From a virus, in the IMG/VR virus record IMGVR_UViG_3300050821_015718, positions 1 through 27,948 of that record: a stretch of DNA of 27,948 nucleotides, one strand, 5' to 3'. The position numbers and the translations under genes were made by a program. This document shows positions 10,562-27,948 of this stretch, in pieces. Each line of letters starts with the position of its first letter. The first letter of the stretch is position 1. The notes beneath the pieces were generated by a model. It was not told where the DNA came from and searched no databases. It was given only the letters and a program-made list of their open reading frames with translations.

Positions 10562-12462
10562 GACAATCTCGCCAACTCACGCTGCTGCTGGACCCTCGCG
10601 CGTTGCTTCTCGGCAAAGAACGACTCCAGCTTGTTCCGGTTAAACAACTCCACCGCACCCTGCATTGTCAAGGCCCGCCTCGCCGCCTCCGCCTCCTTGG
10701 TGAACTTGCGCGCAATCAGGTTCTTCCTGATCTCCCGCTGCCAATAGTACACCATGAGGGCCGAAGCGACCGCTCGATCGTCCTTCTTGCCGCTCGGCGC
10801 CTCGATCGAATCGCCGTCCTGCGCGATCGTGCGCATCTCCTCGATCAAGTCGGCCGAACGCACCTGGAACAACCCCGAAATCACATAGTCCCGCAGGTGG
10901 TTCATGTACATGATCTTGAGGTTGGTGTTGGTCTTCATGTGCCAGTTCTGACCAGACGCCATTCCATCCGGCCGCGCGTAGATGAACGTGCGCACATTGC
11001 GAAAAATATTCCTGAGACCCTTCTCCTCGATCTCCCTGGCCTGGTAGCCGTGCTCGATCTGGTGGCGCAGATTCTTCACCTCGTTGAACACCGCCTGTCC
11101 CGGCCCGTTCAGCTCCAGCACGTAGCGCACCTCGGACTTCTCGGAGCCGCCGTACCAGCCCATGATGGCCGCGAGTATCCATGCGAGCTGCTGCGGCGTC
11201 GGATGCGGCGAGGCAAACTCCGCCACCTGGTCAATCCCGTCGGCGTAGCACCGCCCCACCTCGATCGCGGAGCGATCGTTATGCTCATTCTCCCCGAACG
11301 CCGGGTCCACGCCCAAGCAGTAAATGCCCTCGGGATCGGGCTCCTCCCACACCTTCAACTCGGTCAACTTGACGCTCGCCCGATGCACCATCATGCGGGC
11401 GAACTCCTCGCCCGGCGTGAAGTGGTAGCGGTCAAAGCGCGTCGAGACGTTGTTGCTATACTGCGCGGTGAGCTTATCGGACGGAAAAAACTGCGAGCCC
11501 GTTATCTGGAACGCCTCGTCCTCAGTCCACGGCTGCTCCTGGATGCGAGTCGTCGAACCCTCATACTCAGTCTCCTCACCGCCGGCCTCATAGGTCGCGG
11601 TCGGATCCATCTTGCGCCTGATCCAAGCGAGCTGCTCCTGCGTGATTTCATGCCCGTACAACTCGCGAACCAGTTGGATCTTGGCCAGCTCGCGCTCGGT
11701 CGGCGACTGTTCGCCGTATAGCAAAAAGTCAGGATGATCGCGGTCGATGCACTGCGATTCTTTGGACCAAAAACCCAAAAATATACACTTACAATGTGCT
11801 GAATCCCTGCGAGCTTCTTCCCACATATCCTTCCACTTATTAGGCCCTCTCGCAGTCGATTCATAAATATACAATCGATCGGGATTTATGTCTGAAAGAG
11901 ATTGCTCAAACGCTTCAAGTCCTTCATCGTTATCGAACGAACATATTTCCGATAACGTAGCAAAAGCCAAACCAATAGAACGTCCTAAAGTGCCAGAAGA
12001 TTTTGACTTTTTAACGCCCGCCGATTTGAACAATATTTTGGAATTATTCTCCAACGTCAAACCTTCGCGGTTACCTTCACCCGCTCCCTTGACTTTGGGA
12101 AATCCCAAAGATAGCGGCAAATCACGAATCATTGCAACCAGCTCTTGCCGCGCATTTTCTCGATTTGGAGCCGTATCAAATACAAGCGCGCCAGCAAGAC
12201 CGCGATGCAGTCCCAGCATAAAGATCGTAAGCGCTCGCACTAAAGTGCTGATGCCTAGCTGTCTAGACTTCAAAATAAATATCCGGTGAATGTCCTGTTC
12301 AAGAGCATCAAAAATTTCAGTAATGACCCGAATCTGTCCGCCGTACAGATGCTCACCAAGACAAATATGTCCACCGTCTTTCGAATCTATGTAGCATCTA
12401 GCCAAAAACTGCATAAACGCAGCTTCAACCGCGTCCCGCTTCTTTGCTGACCATCCTGCCAC
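10546..12462 (-). CDS. Terminase large subunit
   Basis: 638 residues. The ATPase part has the Walker A variant KSRQLGIST (residues 65-73) and a Walker B ending in LSE (E172 as likely catalytic). The RNase H-like nuclease part has GVDPAFGE (D387 region), VLELNGPG (E450) and KKDDRAVAS (D561/D562), the three acidic sites expected. It drives DNA into the procapsid and cuts concatemers, docking on the portal. The start is GTG, inside the last 38 bases of the HNH gene. Bases 11750-12462 (N-terminal ATPase half) are about 44% GC by hand count in sampled lines, against about 60% in the rest. Confidence 0.93.
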   Translation of the reverse strand: MAGWSAKKRDAVEAAFMQFLARCYIDSKDGGHICLGEHLYGGQIRVITEIFDALEQDIHRIFILKSRQLGISTLVRALTIFMLGLHRGLAGALVFDTAPNRENARQELVAMIRDLPLSLGFPKVKGAGEGNREGLTLENNSKILFKSAGVKKSKSSGTLGRSIGLAFATLSEICSFDNDEGLEAFEQSLSDINPDRLYIYESTARGPNKWKDMWEEARRDSAHCKCIFLGFWSKESQCIDRDHPDFLLYGEQSPTERELAKIQLVRELYGHEITQEQLAWIRRKMDPTATYEAGGEETEYEGSTTRIQEQPWTEDEAFQITGSQFFPSDKLTAQYSNNVSTRFDRYHFTPGEEFARMMVHRASVKLTELKVWEEPDPEGIYCLGVDPAFGENEHNDRSAIEVGRCYADGIDQVAEFASPHPTPQQLAWILAAIMGWYGGSEKSEVRYVLELNGPGQAVFNEVKNLRHQIEHGYQAREIEEKGLRNIFRNVRTFIYARPDGMASGQNWHMKTNTNLKIMYMNHLRDYVISGLFQVRSADLIEEMRTIAQDGDSIEAPSGKKDDRAVASALMVYYWQREIRKNLIARKFTKEAEAARRALTMQGAVELFNRNKLESFFAEKQRARVQQQRELARLSWRYR

Positions 12463-13117
12463 GAGAATACTGCCTAAAAGGTCTACTCACGGCCTGACTG
12501 AATGTCATGCCTTTGTACATCCTAGACTTTATAGACCCGTAGTTCAACCCCAGCATCTCGCATGCTGATTTTAGTACGATCCGTTTGCCTCTGCACAAGA
12601 CCCATACGGTGTTGCGTTTATTGTTCATCTGCTCTTGACGAGTCGCCCAACAGCAATTACTAGGACTATATCCCTGCCAATTGCGTTTACGCTCAATCCA
12701 GTGCTTAAGAGAAGGACGTTCACCCATATCAGCTAAAAAATTTTCAAATCCGACTTTTCCGCGCCAACGTCGGCAAATTTTTATCCCTCGCTCACCGTAA
12801 TATTTGTACGCTTTTTCTTTTGGATTGTAACAACGACTGTGCATACCGGCCCAAACTTTATACTCAGGCGAGCCGGTTTTACCGTGCTTCAAATTAGACT
12901 GTCGTAATCCTACTCGAATTTGGCACCCACAAGAACGACTACGTCCGCACTTCAAATTGTCACCAGTTACTATCGTTTCTTTACCGCACTCGCAAAGACA
13001 ACGCCAAAAAGCGTACCCCTTGCCTGACTTCCGTCCTACAAAATACAAAACTCGTAATCGACCAAATTGCTTACCGACCAAACACTCTCTTGGATAAGAA
13101 GCACCGGCAATAATCAT
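12425..13117 (-). CDS. HNH-type homing endonuclease (AP2/NUMOD-like phage family)
   Basis: 230 residues. The order GKQFGRLRVL, W-x-C-x-C-x-CG, GRSRSCGC, YKVWAGMHSRCYNP, YYGERGIKICRRW, DMGERP, IERKRNWQGY and NCCWATRQEQMNN is that of the small phage HNH proteins with an N-terminal zinc/AP2-type DNA-binding region. The C-terminal part (VLKSACEMLGLNYGSIKSRM) looks like a NUMOD-type helix-turn-helix. Its ATG overlaps the previous stop (ATGA) and its tail overlaps TerL by 38 bases, so it sits as an in-line intruder between a small gene and TerL. It is AT-rich, 37-48% GC in sampled lines. Confidence 0.85.
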   Translation of the reverse strand: MIIAGASYPRECLVGKQFGRLRVLYFVGRKSGKGYAFWRCLCECGKETIVTGDNLKCGRSRSCGCQIRVGLRQSNLKHGKTGSPEYKVWAGMHSRCYNPKEKAYKYYGERGIKICRRWRGKVGFENFLADMGERPSLKHWIERKRNWQGYSPSNCCWATRQEQMNNKRNTVWVLCRGKRIVLKSACEMLGLNYGSIKSRMYKGMTFSQAVSRPFRQYSRGRMVSKEAGRG

Positions 13118-17820: not shown

Positions 17821-18828
17821 CTACACGAGCACCTTAGTGTCAAGCCTCTGGCGCTCGACCGCGCGCCTCACGCCCTTAGCGAGGGACACCTTCGGATGGT
17901 AAAACTGCCGCATCTTGGCGGGGTCGGCGACGCGCCAGAACACGCCCTCGGGCTTAGCCTTATCGCCTACAATATAAGTAAAACTCTTTGGCCATCTATC
18001 GGGAGGCACATAGTTCATCTCAGCCATCACCTTTGACGCCAATTCCTTAAACGTCGTCGGATCGCCACTCCCAATGTTAAGCGCCTCGCCCGGCTTGAGC
18101 TGCCACACCGTGGCCATCACGCAGCCTACCACGTCGTCAATGTGAACAAAATCGCGGACCTGGTCGCCCGAGCCCCACACCACCAGGGGGGCTTCGCCTG
18201 CAACTGCCCGTCTGACGATGCTGGGAAACGGATAAGCGAGATCCTGGTCCTCCCCGTAGCCCGAAAACGGACGATAAATCACGACGTCAACGCCGCACTC
18301 GACCGCGCGCCGCGCCAAGTACTCACCCGCGAGCTTCGCCCAACCGTAGGTCTCGTCGGGAACGCCGAGACGGTCTCCGCCGAAAGTAACAAGCGACTCA
18401 CAGAGCGAGCAGTGAGTTTCGCGACGCTGGAACATTGTTGGATAGACAGCGGACGACGAGAAGTAGACGACTTTCTGGCCCTTCTGAGGAGCGCGAGAAA
18501 CCCAGCGGAAGAAGTCGGCGTCGATCGCGAAGTTCTGCGCGACAGCAAGGGGATCATCCTCAATCTTTTGGCGCCCACCCACCACGGCGGCGCAGTGGAT
18601 GATAAGATCATAGCCCTCGGACGAGCCCTGCGCCACGAACCACCGGCGCACGTCGGCCTCGACGAACGACAGATTGACCTCGTAGTTAGCCCTGAACATC
18701 CACTGGTGGGGAGGAAGCCCCGCCGAGAGGTCGTCCACGCCCGTGACCCACCAACCATCATCGAGGAGGCGCTTCGCGAAGTGACGTCCGACGAAACCGC
18801 CGCAGCCAGTAATCAGTGCGCGCTTCAT
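17821..18828 (-). CDS. NAD-dependent sugar-nucleotide epimerase/dehydratase
   Basis: 335 residues from an ATG that overlaps the stop of the upstream HAD gene (ATGA); an in-frame extension exists but lies over that gene. Extended SDR features: GxxGxxG in TGCGGFVG (7-14), catalytic Ser in YFSSSAVYP (122-130), YGWAK (Y161, K165), and VVIYRPFSGYGEDQD, then VRDFVHIDDVV and LNIGSGDPTTFKELA. Such enzymes make UDP- or GDP-linked sugars for glycan synthesis. With three glycosyltransferases nearby, it probably supplies or alters a donor sugar; the exact one cannot be told. Confidence 0.88.
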   Translation of the reverse strand: MKRALITGCGGFVGRHFAKRLLDDGWWVTGVDDLSAGLPPHQWMFRANYEVNLSFVEADVRRWFVAQGSSEGYDLIIHCAAVVGGRQKIEDDPLAVAQNFAIDADFFRWVSRAPQKGQKVVYFSSSAVYPTMFQRRETHCSLCESLVTFGGDRLGVPDETYGWAKLAGEYLARRAVECGVDVVIYRPFSGYGEDQDLAYPFPSIVRRAVAGEAPLVVWGSGDQVRDFVHIDDVVGCVMATVWQLKPGEALNIGSGDPTTFKELASKVMAEMNYVPPDRWPKSFTYIVGDKAKPEGVFWRVADPAKMRQFYHPKVSLAKGVRRAVERQRLDTKVLV

Positions 18829-19221
18829 TTCTTGTTCCACGGTTTGAATGCAAGAAGAGTCTCCACGTCCGGCCACACACCCGTGAAGGTCAGCGCACGA
18901 TCATCAATTGTGACAAAAGCTGCCGGCTTCTCGGTCGGCCATTCGATGTCAGCCAATTTGTCATTGGCTTGCGTCGCGTGCGCACCCCAGTAACCCCGGA
19001 AATGATAATAGAGCCATGCCTTCATGGCATTGAGCCCGCCAGGCTGATTGGAGCGCGACGAAAAGATCGCGACCCGGAAATACTCAGTCGCATCCCAAAT
19101 GAACTGCATCGCGCCATCGACGGGCGGATCAGGGATAGTGTCAGCGCCCTTCCAGCCGCTCACATAGCTATGGATTACACCGTCGAAAATCCAAGCAAAG
19201 AATAGGTTTTGTACTAGTCAT
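18825..19221 (-). pseudogene. HAD phosphatase-like gene with a +1 frameshift in the DxDG motif
   Basis: The ATG at 19221 has a perfect AGGAGG site and reads MTSTKPILCLDF, then hits TAG after five more codons. If one C is skipped at TTT-C-GAC (19185-19189), the reading continues DGVIHSYVSGWKG and on to the normal end, giving a 131-residue protein with the HAD motif D11-x-D13-G, SSRS (motif II) and K-P-A followed by IDDRA (motif IV). The joined protein is a standard phage HAD-type phosphatase. The shift site has a classical +1 slippery form (UUU then C, followed by a rare CGA codon), so it could be programmed, or it may be a mutation or a sequencing error. Confidence 0.7.
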
Positions 19222-19260
19222 TTGCTGCCTCCTTTCCATTGTAGCCACCATCTGTTTTTC

Positions 19261-20517
19261 TCAAACTGGCGGCAACTTGTGCCAATCGAACGCCCAGCCA
19301 GGAAGAAACGGCTGCGGCTCGCGGGTTCGTACGCCGTAAAAAATTACACCAGGAGAAAGCGCCGTCAGCCGTACCTCGCGGTAAGCGATTCCCGTCGGCA
19401 CCGGGATCGAAACGACGTCACCAAGGGGTAGGTTAGGCTCCACCACGAATCCGCTGCGCAGGTCTTCGACGCGCAACGAACCGCCCTCTTTCCCGCCACT
19501 CACGAGAAACTCGACGGGACCCGCGAGGGGGATCGTTACCGCCGGCACTCCATCAGACCACCCAAATCCTGCTGATCCTGCCCGCCACGCGAACGGCCCG
19601 AAGCCTTGGCTGAACTCCAAACGCCAATCGCCATTGCGACGCGCGCCTATGCCCTCTAACTGATGGGCAAAGTACGTGCACGCGCCATTCTCGTGCATCG
19701 CGGTTTCAGCGCTTGGATCCCACTCGCCGCGGCGGATGGCAGCAGTGCGCTCAACAAAAGTCGTGAACGCCGCGTCGTCCCGCCTTGTCTCCACGGGGGC
19801 AGCGGCAATCTTAAGTCCCTGCTCGGCAAGTGGCGGGTCCTGCCCAATCATCTCGACGGTCGAGGGGACAAGAGCAAGCGAGGCAAAGCCATAAGAAGCG
19901 AGCACGCGATCGTTACCCCAGTCCGCACAGAGCACCCCGTCATTCATCCCAAACGCCCACCAGCGCCCGATATCAAGCCCCGAGAGGCGGCAGAACAGCC
20001 GGCGGTTCTCGACCGTAAGGGACGTACGCATGTGCGCGAGGGAAATCGCCGCAGCCTCGCGGGTCATGATCTGAGTGCCCCAGCCGAGGTTATGCATCAC
20101 GGCGTATCCGTCACGCTGGATGAGGATTCTATCCTCGTAGCAGCGGGCGGACGCGGCCCCAACTCCCAGACCTTCACTTCGACCACGATCAAATAGCGCC
20201 ATAGTTTCAGCAAACCAGCCCTCCCGTAGCAACGTGTCATTCTCAACGAGTCCCACATGCGTGTAATCTCCACCCTTGAGCATCGTAGTTAGCGCGTAGG
20301 CAACCGCCGCATCGGGCCCGCCACACACATTGCCGTGCGCAACGATGCCGTGACGCTCCCCAGCGCGCATCTGGGTCTCGTGAGGGAAACTCTTACCCTC
20401 CTCGGAAACAGAGCCGTCGCACCACAGGATGCTGGCGTCGCAATTTAAAAGCGGCTCGATCGTGCGACGGGAAAGATCGACGCGGTCCTTAGTGAGAAAG
20501 GCGAGGCAAACTTTCAT
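19261..20517 (-). CDS. Glycosyltransferase (GT-A type) with C-terminal beta domain
   Basis: 418 residues; ATG overlaps the stop of the preceding gene (ATGA). It begins MKVCLAFLTKDRVDLSRRTI, typical of GT-A family 2-like enzymes, and has ENDT (92-95) as a DxD-like metal site, THVGLVEND before it, and GWGTQIMTREAAAISLAHMR. Residues about 270-410 form a beta-rich domain (WRLEFSQGFGPFAWRAGSAG, GGSLRVEDLRSGF) that may bind carbohydrate. It likely transfers a sugar to a virion protein or host glycan. Confidence 0.8.
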   Translation of the reverse strand: MKVCLAFLTKDRVDLSRRTIEPLLNCDASILWCDGSVSEEGKSFPHETQMRAGERHGIVAHGNVCGGPDAAVAYALTTMLKGGDYTHVGLVENDTLLREGWFAETMALFDRGRSEGLGVGAASARCYEDRILIQRDGYAVMHNLGWGTQIMTREAAAISLAHMRTSLTVENRRLFCRLSGLDIGRWWAFGMNDGVLCADWGNDRVLASYGFASLALVPSTVEMIGQDPPLAEQGLKIAAAPVETRRDDAAFTTFVERTAAIRRGEWDPSAETAMHENGACTYFAHQLEGIGARRNGDWRLEFSQGFGPFAWRAGSAGFGWSDGVPAVTIPLAGPVEFLVSGGKEGGSLRVEDLRSGFVVEPNLPLGDVVSIPVPTGIAYREVRLTALSPGVIFYGVRTREPQPFLPGWAFDWHKLPPV

Positions 20518-21608
20518 GCTAACGCGCGCTCACAGTCGCGGCACCACGCCTCGCCAAGCTCGGCAACACCGTCAGGCAAGCGCTGCAGCATCCTCTCAGT
20601 CTTCCATATCAATTTGACCGTCTGCAACGTAGAAAGATCGGCAGCAAACGCATCCCTAGCGAGCCAGACAGCGAACTCGACGACATGCTCCATCCCCCAC
20701 AACTCAGCCTTTAAGTCCTTGATAAGGTCATGCTGATTGCGCTGCTGCCACACGAACGGCCTGCCGTAATGAACGAAGAGATCGCGCTCTCGCATGACTC
20801 GCTGCGCGACAAGACCGGCGAAGATATCGTCGTGGCGGCCAAACTGCGGCACCATGAAGAAGCAGGGCGCAAGCTCGCGCAAAAAAGCGATGTTCTGGGC
20901 ATTGAGGGGCGCCCACACCTGCCGCGGGTCGGACACGACGCCGGCGCGGAGAACCTCCGACACCTGGTGCACGGTCGGATGCCTGGAGATGCGGTCAACA
21001 GCGGAAGTGTCAGGATTCCCCAAGACGACACCCTGCGCGACGCCGATCCTCGCGTCCACGACGGGCTCGAAAGAGCGAAGAGAAGAAAGCTGCTGCGGAA
21101 AGCCGCGCTGGCAAACGGGGTCCATGCCGTCGGCAGGAAACTGGAGGTAACCAGGATCAAACCAACCACTTCCACTAACTTTTAATCCACTAAAAAACGG
21201 AGCGCCAACCACGTCCGAATAACTGCCGTGACTAGACAAATACCAACGTTCTTTCTGCCAAGAAGCACGCCACAAATCGTAAAAACTATCAAAATAACGA
21301 TCAACGGGAATGTTATCATCATCGATCGAAACGATCACGTCGGCGCCCCACTTTAACGCCTCAAGGAGCGCGATGTTGCGGCGCGCAATTGTTTTCCAAC
21401 CTAAAAGAGAAGAACATTCCCAACCCAACTCTTTCTGGCGGTCGGGCGAATACACCTCACAGTCGGGGATAGAAGCGCAAAAGTCATAAGCGGCCTTCGG
21501 GGTCTTCTGGTCCATCGCAACGAAGAAACGAACACTCGGGTCAAGGCGCCGATAGAGCGCCAGGACGGTGGGAACCCTGATGGTCGTGAGAATAAGTGCG
21601 GTCTTCAC
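20514..21608 (-). CDS. Glycosyltransferase with DDD site (RGP/STELLO-like)
   Basis: 364 residues; GTG start overlaps the previous stop. The pattern ALILTTIRVPTVLALYRRLD, the RRNIALLEALKWGAD segment and SIDDDNIPVDRYFD (D96-D98) resemble the reversibly glycosylated polypeptide/STELLO group of GT-A enzymes. The rest includes LSSHGSYSD, PQFGRHDDIFAGLVAQRVM and a helical tail. The segment 21181-21300 is lower in GC (near 38-47% by hand count) than its surroundings. Substrate unknown; works presumably with the epimerase and the other transferases. Confidence 0.75.
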   Translation of the reverse strand: MKTALILTTIRVPTVLALYRRLDPSVRFFVAMDQKTPKAAYDFCASIPDCEVYSPDRQKELGWECSSLLGWKTIARRNIALLEALKWGADVIVSIDDDNIPVDRYFDSFYDLWRASWQKERWYLSSHGSYSDVVGAPFFSGLKVSGSGWFDPGYLQFPADGMDPVCQRGFPQQLSSLRSFEPVVDARIGVAQGVVLGNPDTSAVDRISRHPTVHQVSEVLRAGVVSDPRQVWAPLNAQNIAFLRELAPCFFMVPQFGRHDDIFAGLVAQRVMRERDLFVHYGRPFVWQQRNQHDLIKDLKAELWGMEHVVEFAVWLARDAFAADLSTLQTVKLIWKTERMLQRLPDGVAELGEAWCRDCERALA

Positions 21609-23797: not shown

Positions 23798-24812
23798 ATT
23801 CCAACGCCGCCCTTATGAACTCGGCGGCGACTTGCGGGACGATGGCGTTGCCGAGGGCGCGCAATTTAGCCACTCGGGCGGAAACCCCATGAGCCAACGG
23901 GAATGTTCCGGGTTCAACTGGCCGGCGCTTGCCGTCCCTACAATCGATCCACTCGGCTTCGGCCCAAAAGCTTCGCCCGCATTCAACGCTCGTCCCTCCT
24001 GGAAATCCTCCCGCCGACGCTTCTCGTTCGCGGTCGGAGACGCCCAACTCGCCAACATGACTGCCTGCTCGTTCAGCGGTCTCGCGTTGCGCTCCATTGT
24101 CTCCTGACTGGCGCGACGGTCGCGCCAGTCCCTCGCCGAGGGCGTCGCCCACGCCACCTGCTGCGACAGCGGCACTCCCGTGTCCCACGGTCGTGGCGGA
24201 AGATTGCCACGACGGCCGTCCACCGCAGATGGGCTGCACCAACTCGCCACCGTTTGTAAATTCACTCTGCATCCCGTTCGCGACGGTCCGGTGTTCAAAG
24301 CGTTTTGCGCCTTGGTCGTGGGCCACGAACCACAGACGTTGCCGGATGTGGGGAGCGCCCGCGCCCGCAGCGCAGAGATCGGCCGCCCCGACGGCGTAAC
24401 CCTCGGTTTCCAGGTCAGACCAAACAAGGTCGAGCCACTCAAGCCCCTGGCGCGATGCAACCTGCTCGCCAAGGATAACTGGAGGTCGGCAGACGCGGAT
24501 GAGATGGTGCCACGCGGGCCACAAGTGCCGCTCGTCGTCAAACCCGCCAAGAGCGCCCGCTTGGGAGAAAGGCTGGCAAGGACACGATCCCGTCCAAACT
24601 TTTCGATCAGCCGAGAAACTTGCAAGGCGTAGTGCGTATGGCCACCCTCCGATGCCGGCGAAGAAATGGCACTGGGTATAGGGAGTAAGGTCGGAAGGGG
24701 TGACATCACGGATATCTCGGGTGTCCACGTCGCCTGCGGGTATGAGGCGGTTGGCGATGAGATTGCGGAGCCACTGGTCGGCATAGGGATCAATCTCGTT
24801 ATAATAGTTCAT
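23793..24812 (-). CDS. DNA (cytosine-5) methyltransferase
   Basis: 339 residues. Motif I is HFFAGIGGWPYALRLA (49-64), motif IV GSCPCQPFS with catalytic Cys (C79), motif VI is GEQV (115-118; canonical ENV with Gln replacing Asn), motif VIII is HIRQRLWFVA and motif X GNAIVPQVAAEFI near the end. The short variable region between motifs VIII and IX sets the target sequence. It probably methylates phage DNA against host restriction. The ATG overlaps the HNH stop (ATGA) and lacks its own ribosome site. Confidence 0.93.
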   Translation of the reverse strand: MNYYNEIDPYADQWLRNLIANRLIPAGDVDTRDIRDVTPSDLTPYTQCHFFAGIGGWPYALRLASFSADRKVWTGSCPCQPFSQAGALGGFDDERHLWPAWHHLIRVCRPPVILGEQVASRQGLEWLDLVWSDLETEGYAVGAADLCAAGAGAPHIRQRLWFVAHDQGAKRFEHRTVANGMQSEFTNGGELVQPICGGRPSWQSSATTVGHGSAAVAAGGVGDALGEGLARPSRQSGDNGAQRETAERAGSHVGELGVSDREREASAGGFPGGTSVECGRSFWAEAEWIDCRDGKRRPVEPGTFPLAHGVSARVAKLRALGNAIVPQVAAEFIRAALEL

Positions 24813-25477
24813 TGGGAAAACCGCAATTTTTTATTTTTTAGCTTCGGACGCACAGGAACCGTGATCGCGTCTGCTAAAGACCAGCTTTGATTCAAGCGAC
24901 TGCGAACTACTGTCTTGTTTATATGTACTCGTTCCAACAAATCGATGAGCAACAAGCGCTCTCCCTCGTGCTCCACCCATACATTATTGCGCATATTTCG
25001 TTTTTGCTCGTCCTTTGTCGCCCACCGACAGTTCAGCGGCTCGTAGTTGCCGCGACAATCGGGATAGCGGTCGATTGAATGTGCTGGTGAGGGGCGCGGT
25101 CCCATGCTCTCAAAAAAGTTCTTAAATTCTTTCCAGAAGGCGCAGACGCGTACACCAATCCCACCGTACTTAGAATATGAAGCGTTATTTTTGCGCTCGC
25201 ATCGCTCTCGCATACCCCGCCAAACCTTGTACTCCGCGGGATAACGGAGCGTCAGTCCTGGTGACCTGACTGTCGGCGGCCTCCAAAAATGCCCATGCCG
25301 CGCGCACGACTTGCGGAGCCCTCCACGCAGTCTGTCGCCCCGAACAACAACCTCCTGCCCGCAAGTGCACCGACACAACCACGTCGGATTGCGACTGGCG
25401 TAGCCGACGCGAGATAGCGCGGTGAGATTGCCAAATAGCTTACCCGTCAAATCAACGAAACTGCCATTAGCGCCCAT
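24809..25477 (-). CDS. HNH-type endonuclease, second copy
   Basis: 222 residues from an ATG six bases after AGGTG. The same plan as the gene at 12425-13117: TGKLFGNLTALSRVG, WLCRCTCG, YKVWRGMRERCERKN, YGGIGVRVCAFW, MGPRPSPAHSIDRY and NCRWATKDEQKRN, with a C-terminal helix-turn-helix (RVHINKTVVRSRLN). Some Cys positions vary (SCARHG in place of SCGC), so zinc binding may differ. It is coupled to the methylase gene, as the other copy is to TerL. Confidence 0.85.
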   Translation of the reverse strand: MGANGSFVDLTGKLFGNLTALSRVGYASRNPTWLCRCTCGQEVVVRGDRLRGGLRKSCARHGHFWRPPTVRSPGLTLRYPAEYKVWRGMRERCERKNNASYSKYGGIGVRVCAFWKEFKNFFESMGPRPSPAHSIDRYPDCRGNYEPLNCRWATKDEQKRNMRNNVWVEHEGERLLLIDLLERVHINKTVVRSRLNQSWSLADAITVPVRPKLKNKKLRFSQ

Positions 25478-25500
25478 TCTGATCACCTCACTAAAACAAC

Positions 25501-25529: not shown

Positions 25530-25879
25530 TATGGGTGATCAAAATTTCAATTTTCAAAAATTTGGGGGAAGGCGTGGCGCGGGGAGGACAATATCCCGAC
25601 TCCGCTCGACCCGACGGGCGAAATTTTAGGTTGCACAACCACGACCCGCACCAATACGTTGAAATTATCATGTTACCCACAAATAGCGATTTCAGCCGCG
25701 CACAAGATCACTGCCGTTTGATATGTCGTGACAGTGCGTGATAGTTGAAAACTAATCCTCAATAAAATCAAGCCGTTACAAGGCGCTTGGCAATGTGCGG
25801 TCGGCATACAGCGTTGTAAGGCCGTAAGGAAAAGGCGCGGCCATATGTCGCAGTTTGCGCGATGTGGCTTGCTTCGAGC
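25530..25879. other. Non-coding divergent control region
   Basis: About 350 bases lie between the minus-strand HNH operon and the plus-strand regulator, with no convincing gene. It has an AT-rich left end, a single GGTTGCACAACC site (25629-25640) related to the origin iterons, and otherwise mixed sequence. Divergent promoters probably lie here. Confidence 0.5.
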
Positions 25880-26990: not shown

Positions 26991-27005
26991 TGTACTCTCT
27001 AAATA
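26991..27005 (-). promoter_or_regulatory. 15-bp repeat copy A (TATTTAGAGAGTACA)
   Basis: The 15-base TATTTAGAGAGTACA on the minus strand occurs here and at 27138-27152 with no mismatch. Each copy lies upstream of a small minus-strand gene (here 52 bases before the 26939 start). The shared end TACA could be a -10-like element, the rest an operator for an early-gene regulator. Confidence 0.5.
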
Positions 27006-27135: not shown

Positions 27136-27164
27136 TGTGTACTCTCTAAATAAGTACTTGTCAA
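27136..27164 (-). promoter_or_regulatory. Promoter with TTGACA box overlapping repeat copy B
   Basis: TTGACA (consensus -35) is followed by 17 bases and TACACA (a partial -10) on the minus strand. The spacer holds the repeat TATTTAGAGAGTACA (27138-27152). It would start the early small-gene message; an activator or repressor on the repeat is likely. Confidence 0.55.
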
Positions 27165-27186
27165 GCACCCTACTAAATTACCTTTT

Positions 27187-27471
27187 GTTGCACCTCCCGA
27201 CCAGCGCCGCAACACCCTGTTGCACCGCTATCCTCAACGATTTCAACGATGTTGCACCTGTTGCGCGTGTTGCACCGTTTCTACTATACCGTTATAGAAT
27301 CTGTTCATATATATGAATATATATTCATATGTACTATATAAATTACTATTCCTTATTACCATAACACTCTATAGAAAAGTGGTGCAACAGGTGCAACAAT
27401 GGTATAACCCATTGAAATCGTTAAAGAATTTTCTGTTGCGCCTGGTGCAACAACGACGAAACAGGTGCAAC
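27187..27471. other. Candidate replication origin: iterons around an AT-rich palindromic core
   Basis: Four GTTGCACC copies (27187, 27219, 27251, 27269) on the left face four GGTGCAAC copies (27381, 27390, 27444, 27464) on the right; two degenerate copies (27260, 27435) are also seen. Spacings on the left are 32, 32 and 18. Between them lies an AT-rich core with perfect palindromes TTCATATATATGAA (27304-27317) and ATGAATATATATTCAT (27313-27328), a likely unwinding site. It sits next to the helicase gene. This is the usual design of an iteron-controlled origin, or of a dense operator array. No gene is seen in 27165-27484. Confidence 0.65.
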
Positions 27472-27484
27472 AGCGTTGATTCTG

Positions 27485-27948
27485 CTAAATTATTTGCTTA
27501 ACATAGCCGCGTGGCGTGCCATCTTGAGTCCTGATAACCTGCGGACCATCCCAACCAAGGCGACGCATCGCGTAGACCAAACGTTTTGCCGTGGCGTCGT
27601 TCTGCTTCTCCGCGCCTAGGCCAAGTACGTGCTCGAGCACATCGCGCGTTGTCACGCGCCATTCGCCGCGCCCGTTCTGACTCTTTTCGAGCTTGGCCCA
27701 GCTGGTTTTTTCCGTTCCTGCGAGGATGTCATCCCATGGATCTTGATCCCGCCTGGTTTCCTGCAGCGTTGCAGCATCGCTCCACAGCGATTCGCTCAAG
27801 ACCAGGGGTTCGCCCTGGTCCTCGATCACACTCGCCTCTGCCCACAGCTGGTCGCGGTCGCGCCGCAGCGCCTCCAGGTCGATCCGCCCGCAGCGCACGG
27901 GCCAAAACCGCCGATTGCCGGTTTGTGACTGCAGGTAGGTTTCGTTAT
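27485..27948 (-). CDS. VapE/VirE-family primase-helicase C-terminus (partial)
   Basis: The frame is open to the right edge, so only the C-terminal 153 residues are seen. It starts NETYLQSQTGNRRFWPV, the very typical TGNRRFWPV of virulence-associated E/P4-type phage helicases, then has IDLEALRRDRDQLWAEA, a segment with DPWDDI, and a C-terminal winged-helix-like part (TTRDVLEHVLGL, AKRLVYAMRRLGWDGP). It ends close to the iteron array, which fits a role in replication starting there. The ATPase motifs lie outside the window. Confidence 0.88.
   Translation of the reverse strand, partial: NETYLQSQTGNRRFWPVRCGRIDLEALRRDRDQLWAEASVIEDQGEPLVLSESLWSDAATLQETRRDQDPWDDILAGTEKTSWAKLEKSQNGRGEWRVTTRDVLEHVLGLGAEKQNDATAKRLVYAMRRLGWDGPQVIRTQDGTPRGYVKQII

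Follow-up and report, generated by a model that had tools for sequence, protein, structure and literature searches.

Directly 3′ of a VapE-type helicase gene lies an array of short repeats that, from its sequence and from comparison with known origins, we take to be a replication origin of the SaPI/PICI type, probably read by the C-terminal tail of the VapE protein (probability roughly 0.87). The array was found in a virus record from IMG/VR that is 27,948 bases long and carries no completeness estimate; we refer to this whole stretch as the window. This kind of origin is already known from satellites, and what is new here is its broad use by tailed phages together with covariation between the VapE tail and the repeats. 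An earlier sequence-only reading had proposed an origin whose facing repeats would suit two-way helicase loading, and this main idea is supported by our comparison and by the layout reported for SaPIs and PICIs (PMC6092414, PMC9894130).

An exact word search of the window located four forward copies of the iteron TGTTGCACC at 27186-27276 and four reversed copies at 27381-27472, separated by an AT-rich core. The four-plus-four count of the earlier reading is thereby borne out, as is its remark that the array is unlike plain direct-repeat origins: all exact copies of the left arm are forward and all those of the right arm reversed, as in SaPI/PICI origins and not as in those of the RepA type. 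The elements of the array are as follows.

27186-27194, plus strand: iteron TGTTGCACC, outermost copy of the left arm (exact word match)
27206-27214, minus strand: degenerate inverted iteron GCCGCAACA in the left arm, mirror counterpart of 27434-27442 (mismatch-tolerant scan)
27218-27226, plus strand: iteron TGTTGCACC, left arm (exact word match)
27250-27258, plus strand: iteron TGTTGCACC, left arm (exact word match)
27259-27267, plus strand: TGTTGCGCG, a degenerate iteron of the left arm lying between its two inner exact copies, with a 9-bp period (mismatches allowed)
27268-27276, plus strand: iteron TGTTGCACC, innermost copy of the left arm (exact word match)
27280-27378, no strand: AT-rich core, proposed unwinding site, which holds both palindromes (base composition)
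27381-27389, minus strand: iteron TGTTGCACC (complement GGTGCAACA on the plus strand), innermost copy of the right arm, adjoining the AT-rich core (exact match)
27390-27398, minus strand: iteron TGTTGCACC (GGTGCAACA on the plus strand), inner tandem of the right arm, with a 9-bp period (exact match)
27434-27442, plus strand: TGTTGCGCC, a degenerate iteron in inverted orientation within the right arm (mismatches allowed)
27444-27452, minus strand: iteron TGTTGCACC (GGTGCAACA on the plus strand), right arm (exact match)
27464-27472, minus strand: iteron TGTTGCACC (GGTGCAACA on the plus strand), outermost copy of the right arm (exact match)

The first of these copies as seen from the helicase gene (27464-27472) begins 12 nt past the VapE stop codon, and such a position directly 3′ of the initiator helicase gene, which is also that of SaPI/PICI origins, is enriched across the 173 loci surveyed below. 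Placement past the stop codon sets the array apart from lambda O-type origins, in which the iterons lie inside the initiator gene. Elsewhere in the 27.9 kb, exact GTTGCACC occurs only twice (at 2343 and 16357), and 300 Markov-simulated sequences with the same dinucleotide make-up held a mean of 1.0 copy of GTTGCACC, with at most two within 300 bp, counting both strands. With mismatches allowed, three extra copies appeared, one in the left 9-bp tandem and one inverted in each arm, so that the exceptions to the orientation are mirrored as well. A related single site, GGTTGCACAACC at 25629-25640, had also been pointed out; the site exists, but it is at chance level, with four occurrences of GTTGCAC outside the array against a chance estimate of 3.4 (7-mer, two strands, 28 kb). 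Inside the arms lies a second mirrored pair, TTGAAATC / TTGAAATCGTT, at 27231-27246 and 27412-27427; CATTGAAA, a word related to this pair, shows modest enrichment 3′ of the VapE genes of relatives (11/175 versus 37/3417).

The GC content of the core is mostly 15-30% per 20 bp and falls to 12% in the poorest 40 bp (AT 75-88%). Two overlapping palindromes, TTCATATATATGAA at 27304-27317 and ATATGAATATATATTCATAT at 27311-27330, are both perfect, as had been described, but neither conservation nor unusual foldability accompanies them: the core as single-stranded DNA folds no better than shuffles (z -0.78), and the palindromes are absent from the aligned cores of relatives. For these reasons they look incidental, and we discounted a functional cruciform. 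An Rfam search returned no matches.

Alignment with the cores of close relatives revealed a difference in orientation. The window core aligns to those of L122 and L123 in the forward direction and to that of L124 only as the reverse complement, with a score of 76 reversed versus 36 forward and a shuffle maximum of 38. The L124 core, ca. 190-330 bp past the VapE stop, is inverted relative to 27280-27378 of the window and to L122 and L123, while the arms keep their orientation. A symmetrical origin would permit its core to function in both orientations; the inversion, seen in this single case, could have arisen by recombination between the inverted arms.

Two features of the adjoining gene bear on how the repeats might be recognized.

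27485-27946, minus strand: VapE-type (PF05272) replicative helicase gene, 3′ part, open at the contig end (PF05272, E 1.9e-14)
27488-27667, minus strand: C-terminal tail of winged-helix-like form (residues 94-153), proposed to bind the repeats (AlphaFold2; covariation of tail and repeat word)

The PF05272 match confirms the assignment of a VapE-type helicase gene next to the array. Since the window holds only the C-terminal 153 amino acids of the protein, up to the stop at 27485, its domain order was read from the full-length relatives L123 and L124, whose open frames of ca. 820-850 amino acids comprise a Prim-Pol domain, a PriCT-2-like stretch, the VapE helicase, and a C-terminal tail. AlphaFold2 modeled the tail as a block in the order strand-helix-helix-hairpin with a pLDDT of 91-97. 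A profile of helicase plus tail matched PDB entry 7PDS ('Similar to D. nodosus vapE') with an E-value of 1.6e-65. The 153-residue fragment by itself gave no significant fold match in the PDB, and the longer relative L123 was used instead; the best fold match of its helicase-plus-tail model was again 7PDS ('PriRep1 with dsDNA', E 9e-23), followed by NrS-1 PrimPol. We take 7PDS to stem from the work of Qiao et al. 2022 on Reps encoded by SaPIs. With its PF05272 AAA+ part, the 7PDS fold, and a C-terminal domain, the protein falls into the VapE-type/SaPI1 Rep family, the N-terminal part being known from relatives.

The protein that binds the repeats had been described as not in view, but the C-terminal tail of the adjacent VapE protein is the likely reader, as both the winged-helix-like model and covariation with the repeats suggest. 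Repeat profiles were compared with VapE tails and with the ATPase part at 55 loci by partial Mantel tests. Repeat similarity tracks tail similarity when the ATPase is given (r 0.29, p 0.0005), in contrast to ATPase similarity when the tail is given (r 0.05, p 0.19). The repeat word thus appears to follow the tail and not the ATPase, on evidence that is strong but not conclusive, since the Mantel result could be inflated if the tail evolves faster. These data bear directly on a different assignment of roles, in which the array is an origin bound by another phage or host initiator and VapE is loaded only afterwards. The sequence-only reading held this view; lambda-type phages indeed keep the origin binder and the helicase separate, and for several of the small genes around the array no family could be assigned. 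We consider it improbable given that, from locus to locus, the repeat word varies together with the VapE tail and that SaPI Rep reads an iteron origin directly downstream of its own gene through its C-terminal domain, as Cch2 does with its own downstream origin (PMC7581432).

If the VapE tail is the reader, initiation can be pictured as follows. The winged-helix-like tail would recognize the 9-bp repeat, and because the copies flanking the core face opposite ways, two helicase hexamers would assemble on them head to head. The hexamers would then melt the AT-rich core and move apart, and the primase fused to the helicase would start the new strands. We infer binding, melting, double-hexamer loading, and bidirectional replication alike from the arrangement of the locus.

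The genome from which the window derives is, as judged from its genes, a full-size tailed phage of ca. 67 kb, of which the window is a fragment, and not a satellite. Its large terminase (TerL) is 86% identical over the full length to that of G002 and G003, two contigs of 67 kb, and in G002 as in the window ca. 15 kb separate the VapE stop from the large terminase. TerL identity to the relatives G004-G006 is 57-59% over the main match. Unlike a PICI, a satellite of ca. 15 kb without phage structural genes, the window encodes a large terminase and a portal homologue, and its close relatives measure 63-67 kb.

Several other loci in these genomes deserve mention. In G004 (C1:55980-58895), the terminase aligns in two parts (query 1-510 and 509-638) set ca. 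1 kb apart within a single open frame of 975 amino acids, suggesting that something, for example an intein, has been inserted in frame. The protein encoded at 24809-25486 (minus strand) of the window matches HNH endonuclease families (phrog_374, E 8e-56), and that encoded at 12425-13117 (minus strand), without a Pfam match, looks by eye like a related paralogue; both are possible homing endonucleases. The stretch 17821-21608 (minus strand) combines a sugar-nucleotide epimerase (PF01370) with a reversibly-glycosylated-polypeptide-like protein (PF03214) and is possibly a glycan-modification cluster.

To what extent the layout recurs was assessed on a non-redundant set of 173 VapE loci drawn from IMG/VR, GTDB genomes, and cultured phages. 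We computed a mirror score for 7-mers with at least two forward copies on the left and at least two reverse copies on the right, minus misplaced copies, with a cut-off of at least 5. In the 500 bp past the VapE stop, 47 of the 173 loci reached this score; of the 2,694 control windows taken at these loci, 9 did. The repeat words vary by locus (CTTACAC, TGTTCCC, GGTCCGG, GTCCAAC, CCAGAAC, and others), and adjacent copies are mostly 8-12 bp, often 9 bp, apart. For the 67 arrays with at least five copies, the mean mirror fraction was 0.850, as compared to a maximum of 0.830 in 1,000 random-orientation draws. Perfect mirrors are limited to 21 of these 67 arrays, and 20 of the 54 loci in a mismatch-tolerant scan have an innermost pair that faces the core. 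The exact 7-mer score was zero at 103 of the 173 loci; some of these hold degenerate or displaced arrays, e.g., L122, L125, and G006, the last with its array ca. 650 bp downstream of VapE, and others may have no array at all.

The closest relatives of the window phage show the same layout past VapE with other words: CTTACAC in L124, GTTACACG in L122, GTTGC/GCAACA in L123, and GGTGTAAC in L125. Cultured phages also carry it. In Marinobacter phage PS3, GGTCACCCC / GGGGTGACC follow directly past the VapE gene, and in the Pseudomonas phages vB_Pae_U5, Haddon, and LPPA36, CTGTCCCAC / GTGGGACAG lie one small gene further on. In the PS3 publication, VapE is classed among the auxiliary metabolic genes and no helicase is reported, yet the gene directly precedes a mirror-iteron array; gene and array are likely a missed replication module. 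Searches with the terminase families phrog_2 and phrog_9 were too specific to sort the wider set into phages and satellites. With good though lesser confidence than for the window itself, we regard the mirror-iteron origin with a self-loading helicase as a replicon that is not confined to phage satellites but widespread among prophages and tailed phages of full size; in it, tail and 9-bp repeat coevolve as an interchangeable recognition pair and the AT-rich core can invert between the arms, as between L124 and the window phage.

An exact 18-mer scan of IMG/VR for GGTGCAACAGGTGCAACA was rejected as a route to further origins: among the matches listed, most were coding-type repeats, as indicated by spacing in multiples of 9 bp, uniform orientation, and raised local GC. 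Runs of GGTGCAACA with these same properties occur, among the matches listed, in the IMG/VR loci L003-L120; they look like coding repeats and are a trap for exact-word origin searches.

GC skew had been suggested as a check on the origin. Since the window contig ends 460 bp past the array, skew was read from relatives. In all five near-complete relatives (G002-G006), which are kin and do not amount to five independent tests, the detrended GC skew reaches its minimum 0.9-2.7 kb upstream of the VapE stop. After coding-strand correction, the minimum lies 1.6-2.7 kb upstream of the stop and the maximum 21-29 kb away. The check therefore gives a minimum near VapE, but one that sits close to the start of the gene and off the repeats, and no such minimum was seen in G007, Marinobacter PS3, or Pseudomonas U5. 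As to base composition, the lowest-GC 100 bp of the whole contig falls just past VapE in G002, G004, and G005 and is tied with one other place in G003, and in the fifth relative the 100-bp minimum is displaced together with the array.

One further element borders the outer end of the array.

27136-27164, minus strand: promoter-like TTGACA-17-TACACA for the next minus-strand genes (sequence inspection)

A consensus promoter scan did not score this element, which also occurs past the array in G002, G003, and L122; its TTGACA-17-TACACA context recurs three times in G002 and once in G003. An identical TATTTAGAGAGTACA is present at 26991-27005 and 27138-27152 (minus strand), the second within the TTGACA-17-TACACA context; as judged from the letters, these elements are possibly an early-promoter family with a conserved spacer. 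Repeats by promoters are common regulatory sites, and with a conserved TTGACA-17-TAYA bordering the array in the window phage, G002, and G003, the array could be imagined as an operator for a phage repressor or an activator of the minus-strand promoter, with no origin function. We hold this to be improbable as well: the promoter-like element lies at the outer edge, outside the array; the repeat word varies among relatives in step with the VapE tail; the array sits one gene further on in the cultured Pseudomonas phages; and a plain operator needs no 100-bp AT-rich core between facing arms. Least probable of all is a partition, packaging, or recombination site, which can likewise show short inverted repeats around an AT-rich center, given that the large terminase gene is 15 kb off, no recombinase gene was found adjoining the array, and the association with VapE holds in ca. 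50 loci, including cultured phages of other kinds.

An origin of the SaPI/PICI type would give a likely function to VapE, often labeled 'virulence-associated', in many phages, and for each of them the place of the origin and its repeat word become predictions open to individual testing. The loading of helicases head to head, elsewhere studied chiefly in eukaryotic viruses, would become testable in many bacterial systems. The SV40 T-antigen origin works alike in that facing repeats direct two head-to-head hexameric helicases (PMC9894130), but T-antigen belongs to a eukaryotic virus and its unrelated origin-binding domain is N-terminal (PMC7581432). NrS-1 PrimPol, the second-best fold family, is like VapE a phage primase-polymerase with a helicase-like C-terminal region, but is the weaker structural match (TM 0.47 versus 0.69). 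SCCmec Cch2 resembles the window system in that the initiator helicase binds repeats just downstream via its C-terminal domain (PMC7581432); it differs in its three 5-bp direct-repeat iterons, with inverted repeats dispensable for binding, and in a helicase of the D5_N/Primase_Cterm type instead of the VapE type.

The closest precedent for the proposed mechanism is provided by the SaPI/PICI origins (SaPI1, SaPIbov1, EcCICFT073), which share the layout and the downstream position. Here, too, the proposed origin lies directly 3′ of the initiator helicase gene with opposed repeats, and the initiator is of the same helicase family with a C-terminal DNA-binding domain, putative in the window (PMC6092414, PMC9894130, PMC7581432). 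In PICI origins, an AT-rich region always lies between two sets of iterons, and the pri-rep-ori segment of EcCICFT073 maintains a plasmid (PMC6092414); SaPI repeats in opposite orientations are described as recruiting two head-to-head hexamers (PMC9894130). The window phage differs from these elements in its iteron word TGTTGCACC and in the fusion of primase-polymerase to helicase, although pri and rep are fused in some PICIs too. It is also a tailed phage of full size that encodes a terminase and a portal of its own, whereas SaPIs and PICIs are 15-kb satellites. According to a published account, the satellite origin layout is common to no replicon but phage satellites (PMC6092414); that it is found in tailed phages of 63-67 kb, as well as in cultured phages of Marinobacter and Pseudomonas, points to a single replicon type common to satellites and phages.
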